From the IMG/VR virus record IMGVR_UViG_3300042861_000326, positions 1-29,320 of that record: a stretch of 29,320 nucleotides of DNA. One strand, 5' to 3'. This document shows, one piece after another, positions 10,594-29,316 of the stretch. Position 1 is the first letter of the stretch, and each line of letters starts with the position of its first letter. The notes under the pieces are model-generated. The model searched no databases. It worked only from the letters and a program-made list of their open reading frames with translations, and was not told where the DNA came from. Source of the stretch: a virus. The position numbers and the translations under genes were made by a program.

Positions 10594-11325
10594 ATGAAAA
10601 TTGATTTTAGTTTTAACAAACAGTCCGGTGTATACCTTATTTATTGTAATGATCATTCTTATATAGGTAGTAGCAAAAATCTATATATAAGAGTTAAAGA
10701 ACATGTGAATAGCTTAAAAAGAAAAAAGCATCATAACTCACATCTTCAGAATGTCTTTAATAAATACGGTATTGATCAGTTTAAATGTTATGTTTTAGAA
10801 GTATGCGATAATTATATTGAAAGAGAAACACATTACATAAAGTGTTTAAAACCTAATATGAATATTGAACAAGATCCTGTTAATAGAAAAAAAAGTGAAG
10901 AGACAAAACGTAAACTATCAATAGCAAATATGGGAAAGAATATTGGGTCTGCTAATCCTGTAGCAAAACCTATTCACCAATATGATATAGATGGAAATTA
11001 CATAAAGTCTTATGATACTGTTAAAGAAGCATCTATTGCAGTGGGTCTAAACTATAAAACTATACACAAAAACTCAGTTAAAAATACTAAGACATTAGGC
11101 GGTTACATGTGGAGTTTTAAAAAAGTTAGTAAACTAAAAACGAAAAGTCCTAAAAAACCTTCTAATGTCAAGTATAAAAAGGTAATTCTTGTTTCTGAAA
11201 AAGAAACCAAAACTGTAAAAAGTGTAGCTGCTGCAGCTGAACTGTTAAATGTAACTGTTCAGTCAATACATCAAGCTGCTAAAAAAAATAAAACCTGTAA
11301 AGGTTATCAAATTAAGTTAAACTAA
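10594..11325 (+). CDS. GIY-YIG homing endonuclease with NUMOD/IENR-type DNA-binding modules
   Basis: The N-terminal nuclease domain has GVY at 12-14, YIG at 23-25, Arg33 and a probable catalytic Glu78 in ERETHYIKCLKPNMN. A NUMOD3-like segment (SEETKRKLSIANMGK, 101-115) and two NUMOD1/IENR1-like modules follow (about 125-173, ending GGYMWSF, and 193-241, ending KGYQIKLN). These read DNA in mobile homing endonucleases. The gene is free-standing, not inside an intron or intein. It sits between the VWA peptidase and MoxR genes with looser spacing than elsewhere in the operon, consistent with later insertion. The protein is also more Lys-rich than its neighbours. All key residues look intact. Confidence 0.92.
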   Translation: MKIDFSFNKQSGVYLIYCNDHSYIGSSKNLYIRVKEHVNSLKRKKHHNSHLQNVFNKYGIDQFKCYVLEVCDNYIERETHYIKCLKPNMNIEQDPVNRKKSEETKRKLSIANMGKNIGSANPVAKPIHQYDIDGNYIKSYDTVKEASIAVGLNYKTIHKNSVKNTKTLGGYMWSFKKVSKLKTKSPKKPSNVKYKKVILVSEKETKTVKSVAAAAELLNVTVQSIHQAAKKNKTCKGYQIKLN

Positions 11326-21201: not shown

Positions 21202-21357
21202 TTAAGATCCACAATATAAACAACCATCATCTTCATTATCATGCCAGTCACCATGTTTTTCCATGATTTTTTTAACCTCTTCATTAATCTGCTCTTGAGT
21301 CCAGTCAGGATTCATGGCTCTGATCTGCGCTCTTAAAAAGAAATAATTACTGTCCAT
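21202..21357 (-). CDS. 51-aa micropeptide with a C-terminal CxxC
   Basis: ATG at 21357 overlaps the stop of the upstream minus gene by one base (TAATG), and the frame ends at TAA 21204-21202. The peptide begins MDSNYFFLRAQIRAMNPDW, has a charged helix (EEVKKIMEKHG) and ends DDGCLYCGS, with two Cys that could bind metal. The tight junction and normal composition support a real gene. The function is unknown. Confidence 0.6.
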   Translation of the reverse strand: MDSNYFFLRAQIRAMNPDWTQEQINEEVKKIMEKHGDWHDNEDDGCLYCGS

Positions 21358-21818
21358 TAGTTTGTTAGAATTAGTAGTACACCTAATAATAAGGTACTAC
21401 AACCTAACCCAATGTTCCAATTTAATGATTTAGAATTTTTGATTTTTAACTCTATGTTGTCTTCAGCAATCTCATTATACTCTTCTATGAGTAAATTATA
21501 ATCTTTAACATAGGTTTTTGCATCAGCTATACATTTATTATAGCTTGATGTTAATAACTTAAGCTCTAAGTTTTTATCACCAATCCTTTTTTCAGAATCT
21601 AAGATTATACTATCTCTTAGAGATATACCTTTAGAATAATAACGTAAGTCTACCATAGCTGTAAGTACAGCACGTTCTTGTTCAGGAGTAAGAAACACTC
21701 CTGACTGTCCATTAATTACTAATCTTTGGGGAGTAAATTGACCATAGACTGTCAAGCTGCTTATTAGAAGCACGCTTAATAATATCAATGTCTTGGTTAC
21801 GCTGATCATTGTTTGCAT
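21357..21818 (-). CDS. Secreted/membrane coiled-coil protein, possible spanin component
   Basis: An N-terminal signal-like segment (about residues 8-25, ending SSLTVYGQ with no lipobox Cys) is followed by a long helical coiled-coil region (about 45-130) and a C-terminal membrane segment (LGCSTLLLGVLLILTN). The first 107 bases overlap the end of the preceding gene in another frame. Small coiled-coil membrane proteins with overlapping frames beside a holin-like gene resemble spanin pairs (Rz/Rz1), which fuse inner and outer membranes at lysis. The lack of a lipoprotein Cys argues against a classical Rz1, so this is tentative. Confidence 0.6.
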   Translation of the reverse strand: MQTMISVTKTLILLSVLLISSLTVYGQFTPQRLVINGQSGVFLTPEQERAVLTAMVDLRYYSKGISLRDSIILDSEKRIGDKNLELKLLTSSYNKCIADAKTYVKDYNLLIEEYNEIAEDNIELKIKNSKSLNWNIGLGCSTLLLGVLLILTN

Positions 21819-22086
21819 TATCTAGATCTTTTAAGTGTTTAATATGAAGTACTCGTAGACTATCTACATGAGCTAAGCTATCATGTAAGATTTTCATCTC
21901 AAGAGAATCTTGTGTTAGACTATCTGCTGAGATCTTTTGTTTCAGTTGGTTAGTGTGTATCTCTAAAGTACTAACTCTAGACATCTCATAGACAAATAGA
22001 GTAGCTACAATACAGATTATTGCAACTATTAGTATATCCTTAATTAGTTGATTCTGATTCTCCCTCATTGTTTTCTTCATTACCAT
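21712..22086 (-). CDS. Rz-like membrane-anchored coiled-coil protein
   Basis: The 124-residue protein (start ATG 22086; ATG 22080 and 22068 also possible) has one N-terminal membrane segment (about residues 16-34) and then a long helical heptad-type region with repeated Leu, Asp and His (SLTQDSLEMKILHDSLAHV). This is the shape of an inner-membrane spanin (Rz). It overlaps the holin-like gene before it and the coiled-coil gene after it. Role in disrupting the outer membrane at lysis is inferred from shape and position. Confidence 0.6.
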   Translation of the reverse strand: MVMKKTMRENQNQLIKDILIVAIICIVATLFVYEMSRVSTLEIHTNQLKQKISADSLTQDSLEMKILHDSLAHVDSLRVLHIKHLKDLDNANNDQRNQDIDIIKRASNKQLDSLWSIYSPKISN

Positions 22087-22312
22087 GTTTCTTATTAATC
22101 CATTTATCTACTGATGCAATACCAAAGCATGCTATTGTAAGTAGTTTAAAAGAATCAAAGATAAACTCATTTACTAGTAAAGGTTGGTTTAAGATACCTG
22201 TTACTATGTCAACTATAGCAAAGATAATCATTACTATAAATGCACCAAACCCAATAACTGCTTTTTCATTTAAAGAGTTATTGTCATCAAACATTGTCCA
22301 AAACTTTTTCAT
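22040..22312 (-). CDS. Two-TM holin-like membrane protein
   Basis: The 90-residue protein begins MKKFWTMFDDNN and has two membrane segments (about 19-41 and 53-68), a short connecting loop and a charged tail (INKKHGNEENNEGESE). The small size, two membrane helices and charged tail fit a holin, and the neighbours (endolysin-like gene upstream, spanin-like genes downstream) support a lysis cassette. Membrane proteins of this kind also serve other roles, so the holin call is moderate. Confidence 0.6.
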   Translation of the reverse strand: MKKFWTMFDDNNSLNEKAVIGFGAFIVMIIFAIVDIVTGILNQPLLVNEFIFDSFKLLTIACFGIASVDKWINKKHGNEENNEGESESTN

Positions 22313-22332: not shown

Positions 22333-23448
22333 TTATTTTTTTTCTTTACTTCCTTCTTGAGTAGCATACTTGATACCCATAATTGTTCCTACTATTGAAA
22401 ATGCATTAGTTAGCAAAACACTAAACATATTACTCCAGGTTGACCCAATTATCTGCGTGTCTCTACTTGTAACTATTGCCATCCAATAAAGTGTTGTTGT
22501 AACAACCCCTACACCAACTATAACGGCTAATGCAACTTTAACAATGACTTTTATTAACTCGCTTTGACTTTTTTTCATTAGTACATCTAAGTCATTCAAA
22601 GCTGCATTCTTTTCTATCTCTATTGCGTTTTTAAGTTTTTCTGAGTTAGCTAGCTCTGTTTGCAAATTTTTTGAAAGGTCATCTATTTTCTTTTTATTAT
22701 TTACAGCGTCAGTAACATCTGTTGCAATCTTAACTACATCAGTGATATTTCCTTTGCTATCAAATACAGGATTGTAAGATGCTTGTAGGTGTACAATAGA
22801 CCCATCTACTTTTCTTCTTTCAAATATTCCATCAAAGTACTTACCCTTTCTTAATGTTTCCCAAAACTTAGCATACTCATCTGTTTTAGAATACTCGTAA
22901 CTAACAAACATGCTATGATGTTTTCCAATGACTTTATCTTTTTCATTGGATTTATATCCCATAGTCTCTAAAAAAATGGGATTTGCATCTGTTATGAAAC
23001 CTTCAGTATTAAAACTAATGAGAGCAGTACTTCTGTTAATTGCATCTATTTGCTTCTTACTACTAACTATTGCACTGATGTCAGTAGCAATTTTCATTAT
23101 CTTGGTAATCTTATTATCCTCATCAAAAATAGGATTATAAGTAGCTTGAAGATTGATAAGAGTTCCATCTTTTTTCTTTCTTTCAAACTCACCTTGATAA
23201 TACTTACCGCTTCTTAAGATATCCCAAAACTTTTCGTATTCAAGTGATCTTGAGTAATCTTCACATACAAAAATGCTATGTTTTTTACCAATGATATCAT
23301 TATGGTTACCTTTACCGTAACCCATAGCTTCAAGAAAAATATCATTAACACCAAGAATAACCCCATTAAGGTCAAAGTAGATAATAGCATTACTTCTATT
23401 AATAGCTTCTAATCTACTTAATAACTCTTCTTTAGATAGGTTCTTCAT
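22333..23448 (-). CDS. Double PAS-domain membrane protein in the lysis region
   Basis: The 371-residue protein has PAS1 (about 15-125), PAS2 (about 136-246), a coiled coil (250-298) and two membrane segments (about 299-325 and 338-361), then a basic tail. Both PAS domains carry the pattern of chemoreceptor/BdlA-type PAS-PAC units: a start like INRSTALISFNTEG, a conserved GKHHSMFV, FWETLRKGKYFDG and LQASYNPVFDSKG. PAS domains bind small ligands or cofactors and signal through a coiled coil. No kinase, HAMP, methyl-accepting or cyclase domain follows; the output appears to be the membrane hairpin itself. The gene lies between endolysin-like and holin-like genes, so it may sense host state and gate lysis. 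The ligand is unknown. Confidence 0.9.
   Translation of the reverse strand: MKNLSKEELLSRLEAINRSNAIIYFDLNGVILGVNDIFLEAMGYGKGNHNDIIGKKHSIFVCEDYSRSLEYEKFWDILRSGKYYQGEFERKKKDGTLINLQATYNPIFDEDNKITKIMKIATDISAIVSSKKQIDAINRSTALISFNTEGFITDANPIFLETMGYKSNEKDKVIGKHHSMFVSYEYSKTDEYAKFWETLRKGKYFDGIFERRKVDGSIVHLQASYNPVFDSKGNITDVVKIATDVTDAVNNKKKIDDLSKNLQTELANSEKLKNAIEIEKNAALNDLDVLMKKSQSELIKVIVKVALAVIVGVGVVTTTLYWMAIVTSRDTQIIGSTWSNMFSVLLTNAFSIVGTIMGIKYATQEGSKEKK
22711..23406 (-). repeat. Tandem duplication of the PAS-coding segment
   Basis: The two PAS units, coded at about 23406-23074 and 23043-22711, are similar at DNA level as well as in protein, for example around the codons for LQA-YNP-FD and KFW. This implies a duplication within the gene, or acquisition of an already duplicated pair from a chemoreceptor gene. 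Confidence 0.7.
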
Positions 23449-23501: not shown

Positions 23502-24047
23502 TTAGAACTCTTTCAAAAGTGTATATGTAAACTTCTTAAATCCGGATTTCTTACACTTGCCTAGTAACTCTGCAAATTGTTTTGGATCATTAAGAACCTG
23601 ACATCCTGCAGACCACTTATCTATAAGCTTAGAAACCATTTTCTCGTTAGCACGGTGAATGTTGATACCAAAGATACCAGTTTCAGTTACTGAAGATTCT
23701 TCAGCTACGTCATTCTTGTTACCATCTCTGAATACAGTTACAGGAGCACATTGTGTTAATGCTTCATACTTACCTTGGTGCATACCTACTTGCCAGCAAT
23801 CATCCCATTGTCCGGGCTTAAGCAATGCTGCTCCTTTTGGGTTAAGCAAATTCTGTAACCAGTGAGTACCAGGATTAGTAGTACAAGTATACCAAGTAAT
23901 GTTATCTTTTTCTATTACTGCAATAAGATCATCAAACTGATTCTTAAGATTAGCATTAGATCTAATACCTACTAATTGAAATACAGGCCAATCATAGCCG
24001 TGCTTCTTGAACTCTGCTTTGAGTTCGTCTATTGTATACTTTTTCAT
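23502..24047 (-). CDS. Endolysin-like protein with HR...SAGC motif (L,D-transpeptidase-fold suspect)
   Basis: The 181-residue protein has GIFGINIHRA (His131) and then KWSAGCQVLND (Ser147 to Cys150). A His followed by S-x-G-C is the catalytic pattern of YkuD-type L,D-transpeptidase folds, some of which phages use to cut or modify peptidoglycan. The N-terminal half (WPVFQLVGIRS, TWYTCTTNPGTHWLQN) is typical of small phage proteins of this type in Bacteroidota. No signal peptide is visible, so export would depend on the nearby holin-like proteins. The gene precedes the PAS gene in the minus block. Activity and exact fold are inferred. Confidence 0.65.
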   Translation of the reverse strand: MKKYTIDELKAEFKKHGYDWPVFQLVGIRSNANLKNQFDDLIAVIEKDNITWYTCTTNPGTHWLQNLLNPKGAALLKPGQWDDCWQVGMHQGKYEALTQCAPVTVFRDGNKNDVAEESSVTETGIFGINIHRANEKMVSKLIDKWSAGCQVLNDPKQFAELLGKCKKSGFKKFTYTLLKEF

Positions 24048-24519: not shown

Positions 24520-27500
24520 TTATACACCTTTCCTATTTAAATTACTAATAAAATTCTTAGTTGCCATAACAGGATCTACAGTTGAACCTGTGAATCCAAA
24601 CATCTTAGCAAAGTAGTTAGCCATCTTAACACCACCCTGTTGTTGGAACTCATATGGACCTACAGCTCTCTTATAGTATGCACTCTCGTCCCCGGTAAGT
24701 AAGTTAATCATTTGACCCAAGACTTTAGTGTAAGATTCTATAGTAGATGTTACAGCAAGTGACTCAAAGTTTAAGTAGTCTGTATATGCAGATAATCCTA
24801 ACTTAGGTAGTGGCACCCAGTTTACTTGCTCTTGTCTAGTCTGTAGAGTAAGTGCTAGTAGGTTATTTGAGATATATCCGCCCATATTAAACGGATGTTC
24901 TGGATCATCTACAGATTGAATCAATCCTATATTAAACGGTAATGCTCCTGATTTTTTTCTAAGCTTCTCATACTTCTCTTCATCATCAGCATCAAATCCA
25001 AATAGCATACTGATCATTAATGTCATAGCTATCATAATAGCAGCGTCCATTACTATTCTCATAAATGCATGCTTCTGTTCAGGTGTCATAGAAGAGAAAG
25101 ATTTACCCCCAGTTTGAATACCCTCTTTCATAGTTCTGAAAGCTTCAATATAGAATCCCATGTAACTGTCATTAAGACCCGCATCATATCTAGCTTTAGG
25201 ATCTAGTAGGTTTCCTCTAAACTGAAATCTATTCATGAACATTCTTATGAACCAGCGTTTTAAGAACATCACTTGCTTATATAGTAAGTATCTATCTGCT
25301 TCAGCATAATCAAACTTACCAAAGGCACCGTTCAAGTTATTACCTACAGCTTGAATTTTATTTCTATAAGCTTTGAAGTTAGAACCTTCTGGTCCCCATG
25401 AAGAATCTACACCTTCTTTTAATTGTATCTGACCATCTACAACTTCCCATGCATCTATGTAAGGAATCATAGTAGTCTGACCGTCAATAGTTTGTGGGAC
25501 TTTTTGTGAGTACATCATGGCACCAAAGATGCTGAATGATGCATTAAGTTCTGTCCACTTACGTGTGTTGGTCAATAGTCCTCCTATCTCAGTAGCATCT
25601 TTTAATCCAGTACGTGTAAGGTTCTCACCAAACTTCTCTTCAAATCTAGAAGAGGTAGGATCAAAGATCTCTGTAAGCTGTACATTTAGAGACTTAGGTC
25701 CATACTTATATATCTGAAAAGATACTTCCGCCATGGTTTTGTTTGCCCACACTGTACCTTTAGCAAAGTCACGGTTATTATAAAATCTACCAGCAGCACC
25801 TTCAATCACTCCCTGGATTCTAGCACCCATAGAGTTCTTAATAGCTGACGGTAAGTTCAATGCAAAGTATCCAAGTGCAGATGTATGAAGCATAAAGCTA
25901 GATAGGTTATTAACCCACTTACTATCTGCTAGCATACCTGTTTGGTTCTTACCCTCAAACTCTCTTTCAATAAAGTTATCAATAGCTTTAGAACGTATAG
26001 TCTGTCCTTTCTTAGTAATCTGTTTCTCTAAGCTTCTATTAAGTAAAGATCTTTTGCTAAAAGTATTTATTTCTTTAGCTGCGTTAACCGGATCTCTTAG
26101 TACTTGTTGCAAAGCTCTAGCTGTAGGACTCATCTCACGGAGCTTCTGGTTTTTTTCTAGAGACAACATATATCTCATAGTGCCCGTAAGAATATCTAAA
26201 GATGTATCTACTAGTTCTAGACGGTACTTACCTGTCATAGGAATATTAGATATTCTGTCGTCAAATAAGTCTGTGTTTACAAACTCTTTTTGTTCTTCAG
26301 CATTAAACCCTCTTTCAAAGTCATCAGCTCTTCCTTTCCAGAAAGCTTTAACTTTATTCATAAATACAGAAATAGGATTCTGTTTTACTTCATTACCTTC
26401 AGCATCAACAAAGTTTCTAGATTGTACAGCTTCTAGGTTAGACTTTTCATATCTGGGAATCTCAAGACCTAATCTTTCTTCGGGAGCTTTTCCTTCTTGT
26501 AACTCTAAGTGCTTATCTATAAGTTTTATAAGCAATGCATATAGAGCAGGGTCTTCTTCTTTTACTTTAAAGAATCCGTTCTCTATATAAGTAGTGTCCT
26601 TACTACCGTCTGCATTAGTTACATCAAGTTTTGGTAGCCAGTTAAAGCCATCCCAGTTAGCTTGAGTAATATCACCCGCAGCAATAGCTTCTCTAATGGT
26701 TACTTTCTTAGTTACAAATCCCGCTGCAGGATCTTGCTTAACTTGATATCTATAATACTTAGAAGCAGGAAGTCCTAATATAAATCTAGATGTACCATCA
26801 GGATTAACTATCTCTGTGGTTTCATAGTGATCAACATTAGTAGGTCTTGTTACTGACCAAGCTGCAGTTCTTTTATATCTAGTTTCAGATTGACCGGATG
26901 TTGTATTAAAGAAGTTTTCTTCTGTATGGTTATCATCAAACCATTTCTTAAAATCTGAATTATTATTTCTTAGTGTCTCAACAAAATAAATGTTATCAAA
27001 GATGTCTATGTTTTCTAGAGTAAATTCTTTAATACCCATATTCAAGAATATATCTTTTATCTCATCAGAAAACTCTGAGAAGTAACTATTAAGAACAGTA
27101 AGATAGTCATCCGTGGGATCATTAGTCTGCATTCCCTCAAGATCTCTATATAACTCCATCATCCTGTTGTAAACTTCTTGCTCTCTTTCAAGTGCAGCTT
27201 TTGCTTGAGGACTTAAGTTCTTAGCAGTTCTATTAATACGCTTATCTAATAGTTCTTTTCTTCTTGCAAACTCTTGTTGTGTAAGTCTTTCCATAGATTC
27301 TCCAGACAAGAATCTTTCTCTCTTCTCAGACAACATAGATAGCTCAGCTTGCTCTAACTTAGTTAAACCACTACGAGTCATAAGTAACTCTTTAGCAGCT
27401 TTGATTTTATCTTCAAGTACTTTTATTTTCTCAAGTACTTCAGGTGTCATTTCTAGTGATGCTGGCTGTCCATCTTTATCTCTATACTTAGCAACTAGTA

Positions 27501-29316
27501 GTGCTCTTTCTTCATATAGTTCGGCAAGCTTATCATCAATTGCTGGTTGATTAGCTTGTTGTAATAAAGACTTCTGTTCTTCTTTTAGTCTAGCTAGTTC
27601 ATCATATATAGCTCCTCTTTGTTCATAGAAACTATTCTTAATTTTAATACGAGTATTTCCCTTAATCCACTTATCTATGTGTTGGTTATACTCATCTGAA
27701 CCTACTTCAATATTACGGTCAACTAAGCTCTGAGCAAAGTTTAAGAAGGCATTCTGAAATACCCCACGTAGAGGAATCTCATCATACATATCTTTACCTG
27801 CTTTTTGAAACTCTTGTAGTCTACGTGCTATCTCTAGATCACGGCCTACTTTCATATTACCTCTCTCGTCTAGTAAAGAATAAAGTTGTTTCTTTCTTCT
27901 ATATAGTACTTCAAGTTCTTGTAGATACTCATACTGTTCATAGTCAGAGGCTACGGCATTATTAATATTGCGGATCTCAGATTCAATTTGGTCAAGTCTA
28001 TGTCTAGCATCTTTACCAATATCATCCTTCTCTAGTAAGTCATACTTAGCATAGTACTTATTTGTGTACTCTGTATGCATGTACTTTCTTTCCCATGCAC
28101 GCTTCTGGTTGATCAAGTCTGTAACTTTCTGATAGTCTTTAGTATCTACAGCTTCTTTCTTAGCTTGTTCTATCTTAAAGTTCCACTCATCAATATCTTT
28201 CTTATAGTTCTTCCATGGATTAAGATAGGTGTATGCTTGATAAGGTTTAAAAGTATCCTTATCTCTACCACCTACTAAATCTATGAATGTAGTTCTTTGA
28301 CCTAAGTCTGCAATGTTTTTAGGATTAAATCCCGCAGCCTTTAGTAAAGGTTCTATTTCAGTAGCATACTGATTAGCTTTTAATTGTGCTCTTGTTTGTA
28401 CATCTGTAAAGTTGTTCTTTACATACATAGCGAACCCAAATACTATAGGGTCTTGGTTATTCATGTACCCTTCTAAGAAAGAATTAAGAGCATGTGCATC
28501 TCCTAGTTCTCCTTTCATAAGAGCTTCTATCTTCTCGGGATTAAGTTTTAGTTCTTCATACTCACGCTTGCGGGCTTCTATAACTTTCTCAGGAGCATTC
28601 TTACTCTCTAAGAACTCAATCATCTCTGTATACTTCTGATCTATGGATTCTTTAAGAGGTAAAAGAGTATCGTAAATAATATCTCTGGTACCAGCCATAT
28701 ATACTTTATTGGTGAATACCTTAGACTGCTTAATGTTAGCTTGTATTTTATTTACTAATTGGTATAGCTTACTATTAGTTGTGAGACCTGCTAACGTGAA
28801 AGCCTGGTCATACTCATTCATGAACTTCTCTAATGTATTAATAACATTGTTCATGTAGAATACAGCTTGTAAGTTATCCTTGTTGTCTACATCTCTAGAT
28901 AACTCGGCTAGCTTATCATTCATCTTAAGAGTAACTACTTCAAGACGCTCTATACTATTAATGAAGGCAGTCATACGGGCACGCTCAAACTCTACTGACT
29001 GTGCGGCTTGACCAAGAGGTGTACCTGATATAGTCTGATATCTACGTATAGAAGATAAGATTTCTCTTAAGTCAGAACGATCATACTCATCACGGAGTAA
29101 GTTAGCAGCTAACTCATAGTCCTTATTCTTCTCTAGGTTATTAAGAGTATCCTGTACAACATCATACATCCGGTTAATACTATTCTGAAATTCACCAGTT
29201 CTGTCTATCCTGCGTAAATCATTAAAGTATTCCGTATGATCACGGACGTAGGCAGCAAAGTCAGAGTCACTAATAATGTCTGTATTAAAGGTAAAGGTAG
29301 TTCCACTCTCAATCAT
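24520..29316 (-). CDS. Giant virion-type protein, at least 1598 aa, possibly 5'-partial
   Basis: A single open frame of 1598 residues ends at 24520 and reaches ATG 29316, four bases from the right edge. No stop lies between that ATG and the edge, so the true start may be outside. The first half is highly helical and charged, with long coiled-coil stretches (about 380-750). The second half is more globular, with a hydrophobic segment near 1417-1438 (IVMDAAIMIAMTLMISMLFG) and basic aromatic helices (FLKRWFIRMFMNRFQF). Giant, mostly helical proteins with a late membrane segment are typical of ejected internal virion proteins in podovirus-like phages. I see no DxDGD RNA-polymerase motif, so it is not the crAss-type virion polymerase. 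Role inferred. Confidence 0.8.
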   Translation of the reverse strand: MIESGTTFTFNTDIISDSDFAAYVRDHTEYFNDLRRIDRTGEFQNSINRMYDVVQDTLNNLEKNKDYELAANLLRDEYDRSDLREILSSIRRYQTISGTPLGQAAQSVEFERARMTAFINSIERLEVVTLKMNDKLAELSRDVDNKDNLQAVFYMNNVINTLEKFMNEYDQAFTLAGLTTNSKLYQLVNKIQANIKQSKVFTNKVYMAGTRDIIYDTLLPLKESIDQKYTEMIEFLESKNAPEKVIEARKREYEELKLNPEKIEALMKGELGDAHALNSFLEGYMNNQDPIVFGFAMYVKNNFTDVQTRAQLKANQYATEIEPLLKAAGFNPKNIADLGQRTTFIDLVGGRDKDTFKPYQAYTYLNPWKNYKKDIDEWNFKIEQAKKEAVDTKDYQKVTDLINQKRAWERKYMHTEYTNKYYAKYDLLEKDDIGKDARHRLDQIESEIRNINNAVASDYEQYEYLQELEVLYRRKKQLYSLLDERGNMKVGRDLEIARRLQEFQKAGKDMYDEIPLRGVFQNAFLNFAQSLVDRNIEVGSDEYNQHIDKWIKGNTRIKIKNSFYEQRGAIYDELARLKEEQKSLLQQANQPAIDDKLAELYEERALLVAKYRDKDGQPASLEMTPEVLEKIKVLEDKIKAAKELLMTRSGLTKLEQAELSMLSEKRERFLSGESMERLTQQEFARRKELLDKRINRTAKNLSPQAKAALEREQEVYNRMMELYRDLEGMQTNDPTDDYLTVLNSYFSEFSDEIKDIFLNMGIKEFTLENIDIFDNIYFVETLRNNNSDFKKWFDDNHTEENFFNTTSGQSETRYKRTAAWSVTRPTNVDHYETTEIVNPDGTSRFILGLPASKYYRYQVKQDPAAGFVTKKVTIREAIAAGDITQANWDGFNWLPKLDVTNADGSKDTTYIENGFFKVKEEDPALYALLIKLIDKHLELQEGKAPEERLGLEIPRYEKSNLEAVQSRNFVDAEGNEVKQNPISVFMNKVKAFWKGRADDFERGFNAEEQKEFVNTDLFDDRISNIPMTGKYRLELVDTSLDILTGTMRYMLSLEKNQKLREMSPTARALQQVLRDPVNAAKEINTFSKRSLLNRSLEKQITKKGQTIRSKAIDNFIEREFEGKNQTGMLADSKWVNNLSSFMLHTSALGYFALNLPSAIKNSMGARIQGVIEGAAGRFYNNRDFAKGTVWANKTMAEVSFQIYKYGPKSLNVQLTEIFDPTSSRFEEKFGENLTRTGLKDATEIGGLLTNTRKWTELNASFSIFGAMMYSQKVPQTIDGQTTMIPYIDAWEVVDGQIQLKEGVDSSWGPEGSNFKAYRNKIQAVGNNLNGAFGKFDYAEADRYLLYKQVMFLKRWFIRMFMNRFQFRGNLLDPKARYDAGLNDSYMGFYIEAFRTMKEGIQTGGKSFSSMTPEQKHAFMRIVMDAAIMIAMTLMISMLFGFDADDEEKYEKLRKKSGALPFNIGLIQSVDDPEHPFNMGGYISNNLLALTLQTRQEQVNWVPLPKLGLSAYTDYLNFESLAVTSTIESYTKVLGQMINLLTGDESAYYKRAVGPYEFQQQGGVKMANYFAKMFGFTGSTVDPVMATKNFISNLNRKGV

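Follow-up and report, generated by a model that had tools for sequence, protein, structure and literature searches.

Here we describe a family of phage membrane proteins in which one strongly conserved C-terminal module, a coiled coil running into a hairpin of two transmembrane (TM) helices, is either fused to PAS sensor domains or encoded together with a histidine kinase and a receiver, its gene lying among lysis genes. We read these proteins, with a probability of roughly one half, as phage-specific, signal-gated membrane effectors of lysis timing that would be fed by a fused PAS input or by a phage-encoded two-component relay. What is known of phages sensing their surroundings at the lysis step comes chiefly from superinfection-induced lysis inhibition; if the proposed function is right, the coupling of signal transduction to a phage lysis cassette would be new.

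The protein under study is a 371-aa ORF (ATG start, minus strand, positions 22333-23448) of the window, as we call the whole analysed stretch, a 29.3 kb virus record; the plus strand of 22333-23448 is riddled with stops. The first-pass annotation had described two PAS units, a coiled coil, two TM segments and a basic tail without an output domain, and this description is borne out. Specifically, Pfam assigns PAS_3 (3.7e-25) and PAS_9 (1.2e-20), two stretches each, NCBIfam assigns a doubled sensory_box (6.6e-29), and Pfam returns no HK, MCP, GGDEF or other enzymatic or chemotaxis output domain, including the MCP signalling domain typical of BdlA- and Aer-type chemoreceptors. The AF2 model (31-row alignment; mean pLDDT 74, pTM 0.38) predicts both PAS folds (residues ~20-123 and 141-244), a single helix at 246-327 in which the coiled coil runs on into TM1, and a second, hairpin helix at 332-364; a short basic tail ends the protein after the two TM helices. 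The top PDB match of this model by Foldseek is the tandem PAS of MmoS, and the solved chains closest by sequence are MmoS, NifL and Aer. Both AF2 and hydrophobicity give two TM-length helices, for which flanking charges, the sole basis here, suggest an N-in/C-in topology. TM2 presents small or polar residues on one face (shuffle P 0.012; ordinary hydrophobic moment not significant), the pattern one would expect where helices pack or line a pore.

In the window the gene belongs to a tight minus-strand run that encodes a 1598-aa protein, a 150-aa protein, an endolysin-like protein, the PAS protein, a 2-TM protein and two overlapping small membrane proteins (Table 1). The placement between endolysin-like and two-TM holin-like genes, proposed at the outset, thus holds: the upstream product clusters with PG_binding endolysins from related loci, and the family of the downstream 2-TM protein (22040-22312) is present in 53/81 loci, with no holin match for the window protein in either Pfam or PHROG. 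The two small membrane-protein genes (21357-22086, minus strand) share 107 nt read in different frames, an Rz/Rz1-like arrangement, although the second product has a signal peptide, a C-terminal TM and no lipobox; a pair related to them is found in locus L105. A separate u-spanin-like candidate, a protein with a lipobox and a C-terminal TM but no Pfam family (cluster 28; L008:5271-5747 and similar), is found in nine loci, where its gene is the second one ahead of the PAS gene. The 1598-aa protein (24520-29316, minus strand) likewise has no Pfam family, and resembles a protein of uncultured gut phage cr116_1 only weakly (22.7%).

Table 1. Features of the 371-aa protein and its neighbours in the window (positions are those of the window; residues are those of the protein)
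Feature	Position	Strand	Basis
PAS-PAS-coiled coil-TM hairpin protein, 371 aa	22333..23448	-	Pfam, NCBIfam, AF2
PAS1, residues 15-130	23059..23406	-	Pfam PAS_3 33-120; AF2 PAS fold
PAS2, residues 136-250, probably internal duplicate of single-PAS form	22699..23043	-	Pfam PAS_9 147-247; PAS-unit tree
Coiled coil, residues 251-299, helix unbroken into TM1	22552..22698	-	AF2 helix 246-327
TM1, residues 300-325	22474..22551	-	Hydrophobic segment; AF2 helix
TM2 and approach, residues 331-363, invariant core TQIIGSTWSNMFSVLLTNAFSIVGTIMGIKYAT	22360..22458	-	Conservation in alignments and motif counts
Endolysin-like protein, directly upstream of PAS gene	23502..24047	-	phrog_3000 2.4e-37; endolysin phrog_33083 7.3e-19
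2-TM holin-like protein, 20 nt downstream of PAS gene	22040..22312	-	Conserved neighbour
N-terminal TM and coiled coil, i-spanin-like candidate, overlaps next gene	21712..22086	-	Topology; weak match to Rz-like phrog_739, E 0.052
Protein with signal peptide and C-terminal TM; may pair with 21712..22086 product	21357..21818	-	Sequence features; no lipobox seen

Among 50,697 deposited phage records there are no full-length relatives and three matches, all to the PAS part only; MT836939 and two Listeria phage records were set aside as relatives, being ordinary PAS-MCP-like proteins without the hairpin. IMG/VR, by comparison, holds 241 relatives by whole protein and 554 by hairpin, two sets that overlap, and 350 from a PAS-less form, which may overlap both. 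Across 59 distinct copies amino-acid identity is ~87% and pN is 0.069 against a pS of 0.54, synonymous change being near saturation. Such a low pN at near-saturated pS points to an old and strongly constrained family rather than a freshly spread one and, together with the hundreds of relatives, argues that the ORF is not a chance one. The TM2 region is the best conserved of the protein, with a mean pairwise identity of 95.5% at a pS of 0.55: residues 331-363 are invariant in the 31-row alignment, and the core motif (residues 331-362) is identical in 153/153 proteins and in 311/336 of a wider set. Two of the scans used patterns taken from the conserved stretch itself; a control scan was built from PAS-end patterns only, and every locus that it added had the TM2 motif. 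The variant TQVISAAWSNIFGILLTNAFSIVGTIMGIKYA of the motif came from a pattern scan that was not ranked by similarity. Why TM2 should be invariant is a puzzle in its own right.

Large contigs (116 to 322 kb) carry a single hairpin gene each (10/10). The hairpin looks phage-specific, since it is absent from 395 Bacteroidia genomes. A bacterial version was also sought in a scan of genome contigs with two PAS-derived patterns, a non-exhaustive search that gave only bacterial sensors sharing the PAS part, and was not retained as a candidate.

The hairpin is common to three forms, namely proteins with two PAS domains (371 aa), with one (~250 aa) and with none (224-228 aa, with a long coiled coil), the last occurring on contigs of up to 322 kb. 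A profile built on the PAS-less form hits the PAS-type proteins at ~1e-42 over positions 98-223, which cover the coiled coil and hairpin, and its AF2 model (5 alignment rows only; pLDDT 80) has a helix at 36-184 running into TM1 and a hairpin helix at 188-221. At the sequence level these comparisons show the C-terminal coiled coil and hairpin to be the constant module and the N-terminal input to be interchangeable. In a PAS-unit tree (few columns, unrooted) all hairpin-linked PAS units fall into one group (99/98), with single-PAS units beside PAS2, consistent with PAS having been captured once and duplicated within the protein afterwards. The window's PAS1 is matched best by the second PAS of a phage kinase (55%), most bacterial and plasmid matches lying at ~40%; we did not adopt direct descent from the kinase PAS, as the tree does not resolve it despite this highest identity. 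A further relative, A0A6J5PRT3 from an uncultured Caudovirales phage (218 aa), shares 53% identity with the PAS-less hairpin (E 6.9e-15 by Foldseek against BFVD) and is annotated only as uncharacterised.

The PAS-less form is found with what appears to be a complete two-component system. In L350 and L367 (304 kb contig), for example, the gene order is a PAS-PAS or GAF-PAS-PAS histidine kinase, a CheY-like receiver, the hairpin and a GH19 endolysin, and Pfam confirms HATPase_c, PAS, GAF, Response_reg, PG_binding_1 and Glyco_hydro_19 in the PAS-less loci. A receiver lies directly upstream of 50/52 distinct PAS-less hairpins, a kinase is present at all 37 loci with enough upstream sequence, and the receiver stop overlaps the hairpin start by 4 nt in 30/37 cases and nearly abuts it in the other 7. 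Kinase, receiver and hairpin thus form one apparent operon (L350:2929-5675, L367:2411-5678, L387, L414, L419, L423 and L424); two of these loci, L387 and L414, each encode a pair of kinases ahead of the receiver. The kinase is recognized by HATPase_c (2.9e-16), and its H-box is read from an RHDMHSGI-type motif conserved in 37/37 testable loci, Pfam HisKA giving no match. Pfam finds no DNA-binding domain in the receiver, which scores above cut-off (Response_reg 4.4e-8) and in three aligned sequences keeps D9, D10, D63, S94 and K116 invariant, that is, the acidic pair, the phospho-acceptor Asp, the Ser/Thr and the Lys. Kinase-receiver specificity is inferred only. Because the second PAS of the kinase is the closest match of the window's PAS1, a similar PAS input would seem to reach the hairpin by direct fusion or from upstream in a presumed phosphorelay.

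Relatives with the PAS-TM-TM layout number in the hundreds in IMG/VR, and their neighbourhoods strongly support a link between hairpin and lysis genes, as the first-pass annotation had suggested for the window gene. When distinct loci with 3 kb or more on either side were searched by tblastn, a same-strand hydrolase no further than 3 kb away turned up in 33/38 two-PAS and 22/22 one-PAS loci (55/60 for PAS types) and in 19/29 PAS-less loci; no recognised hydrolase was present in that range in the remaining 10/29, and hydrolases outside the reference families, which were drawn from the same loci, would be missed. Counted in genes, a hydrolase lies no more than 3 genes from control genes at a distance of 7 or more positions in just 4/423 cases. 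The hydrolases near hairpin genes are of four unrelated kinds, Phage_lysozyme, Peptidase_M15_3, PG_binding endolysin and GH19, so that homologues do sit in lysis regions. A 2-TM gene lies within 3 kb, again on the same strand, in 29/38 two-PAS and 20/22 one-PAS loci (49/60 for PAS types) and in 0/29 PAS-less loci.

The suggestion that the hairpin is holin-like stands in part. Its predicted two-TM topology agrees, whereas neither Pfam, PHROG, NCBIfam nor hhalign profile comparison gives homology to known holin families; hhalign likewise gave no kinship with the neighbouring 2-TM, Phage_holin_4_1-type or other small TM families. We therefore use "holin-like" for topology only. The broader proposal of a sensor-gated membrane protein that might time lysis, or that might instead block lysis or superinfection, draws support from the sensor, the hairpin and the lysis neighbourhood, and is reinforced by the PAS-less form with its kinase and receiver. 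The nearest solved PAS relatives (MmoS, NifL, Aer) bind FAD. In the mechanism that we propose, both termini would be cytoplasmic, as the basic residues flanking both TMs suggest; PAS domains resembling FAD-type redox and aerotaxis sensors (MmoS, NifL, Aer, BdlA) would read redox or energy state, a guess made because these relatives are of the FAD type; the signal would run down the continuous helix into TM1; and a shift in the oligomeric state of the hairpin would control membrane permeability and the onset of lysis. In jumbo phages, phosphorylation might work the switch instead, with the kinase acting through the receiver on the coiled coil of the PAS-less form. That phages thereby possess a dedicated signal transduction for the lysis decision, in which an ultraconserved hairpin with PAS or kinase-receiver input makes lysis depend on the redox or energy state of the host, is a tentative extension that we hold at slightly under even odds.

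We favour a hairpin that acts directly in the membrane, as a self-assembling, holin-type protein with a predicted role in either triggering or delaying lysis, over an inhibitor of the 2-TM protein. The inhibitor alternative is that the PAS-hairpin protein is an antiholin that heteromerises with a true 2-TM holin and restrains it, either up to the arrival of a signal or for as long as the signal lasts, in the way that RI restrains T in phage T4. Lysis inhibition by holin-antiholin pairs is an established form of phage environmental sensing (PMC7182436, PMC8385771), and the 2-TM gene of PAS-type loci often lies directly before or after the hairpin gene. Given this frequent second holin-like gene, the holin may also be a protein other than the hairpin. 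Yet the 2-TM neighbours are mostly ~36-45% identical to that of the window beside a near-invariant hairpin, so the two do not co-vary, and the hairpin of PAS-less loci is independent of any 2-TM gene, which argues for direct action; we consider an antiholin unlikely.

Holins usually diverge fast, and the ultraconservation of the hairpin, unusual for a holin, would also fit a conserved host target. Perhaps the hairpin binds a conserved host membrane protein, in superinfection exclusion, rII-like protection or a block of a host response, with the lysis cassette serving merely as its late operon. Thirty-two consecutive residues identical in most copies across very different phages would suit such a partner, although precise self-packing of an oligomer would also yield invariance, and the consistent company of four unrelated hydrolase kinds, rather than of late genes in general (control 4/423), speaks against it; we rate it marginally below the antiholin. 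Least likely of all, in our judgement, is a membrane-tethered PAS sensor without a lysis role, with the hairpin a mere anchor and the output another cytoplasmic protein. PAS domains can serve as scaffolds, and the protein has no enzymatic output domain by Pfam; but the PAS-less form keeps the hairpin with no sensor to anchor, and an anchor needs no invariant TM residues, whereas TM2 is the best conserved region.

Class II holins are ~65-95 aa long and have no sensor domains. Together with pinholin S21 they share with our protein the two TMs, the predicted N-in/C-in topology, the short basic C-tail and a gene beside an endolysin; PHROG and hhalign comparisons gave no sequence homology to it, and its hairpin is far more conserved. 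Two-TMD N-in-C-in holin-like proteins of 77-88 aa have been compared with S21 (PMC13056207). The BdlA, McpS, Aer, NifL and MmoS proteins carry PAS domains of the same type, those of BdlA and McpS being listed as FAD candidates (PMC8694187), and feed chemotaxis or kinase-type outputs, whereas here the output is a membrane hairpin. As in our proposal, lysis timing is tied to a sensed signal in lysis inhibition by T4 T/RI and ICP1 TeaA/ArrA (PMC8385771, PMC7182436); sensing in T4 is periplasmic (RI-T) and believed to concern superinfecting phage DNA, whereas we predict cytoplasmic PAS or phosphorelay input. LytST-LrgAB similarly ties a two-component system to holin-like proteins (PMC3507848), as in the PAS-less loci; it is bacterial and acts on expression, whereas here the receiver is encoded by the phage, Pfam shows no DNA-binding domain in it, and its gene overlaps that of the hairpin. 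A survey of jumbo phages found a divergent receiver domain, never with kinases (PMC7824862), and the words "sensor" and "histidine" are absent from the text of a survey of lytic proteins (PMC12596118). Searches of open-access papers turned up T4/ICP1 lysis inhibition and bacterial LytST-LrgAB but no account of PAS domains in, or a kinase-receiver pair linked to, a phage lysis protein, in agreement with the first-pass statement that no phage holin or antiholin with PAS domains was known.

Proteins like phrog_1544/GTA_holin_3TM also have a coiled coil followed by a TM hairpin, and differ in a C-tail motif, FGSSxGS. The hmmscan matches of our hairpin to phrog_1544 are weak (0.0045-0.013; 1.7e-5 for a single record) and profile-profile comparison by hhalign gives no support, so homology was not accepted and phrog_1544, a family annotated as of unknown function, is retained as an analogy; it has no match in T4, S-PM2, P-SSM2 or HTVC008M. 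A phrog_1544 relative with coiled coil, TM hairpin and FGSSxGS tail does occur in a Bacteroidia genome (L441:1086-2016), and its position directly after an M15-like endolysin suggests that it possibly belongs to a holin-type family.

With the hairpin joined to PAS domains or encoded with a two-component pair among lysis genes, viruses may read the state of a cell before bursting it. If so, phages couple lysis to classical bacterial signal transduction in one-component (PAS-fused) and two-component (kinase and receiver) versions, which would explain how aquatic phages could tune the burst to host state and would provide a modular, testable sensor-actuator. That the carriers are tailed phages is supported by terminase matches in 8/14 large contigs, five of these matches being strong. 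The hosts are probably uncultured aquatic bacteria of the Bacteroidota, judging from the lack of Shine-Dalgarno-like motifs before 30 window genes (the gene at 29316 has only 4 upstream bases) and from a CHU_C-like C-terminal sequence seen by eye at one locus; window GC is 34%. Read by eye, DnaK/Hsp70-like genes stand just downstream of the kinase-receiver-hairpin operon in two putative large phages (L423:5385-7244 and L424:6046-7896), and a GIY-YIG homing endonuclease look-alike lies among the plus-strand genes of the window (10594-11325).
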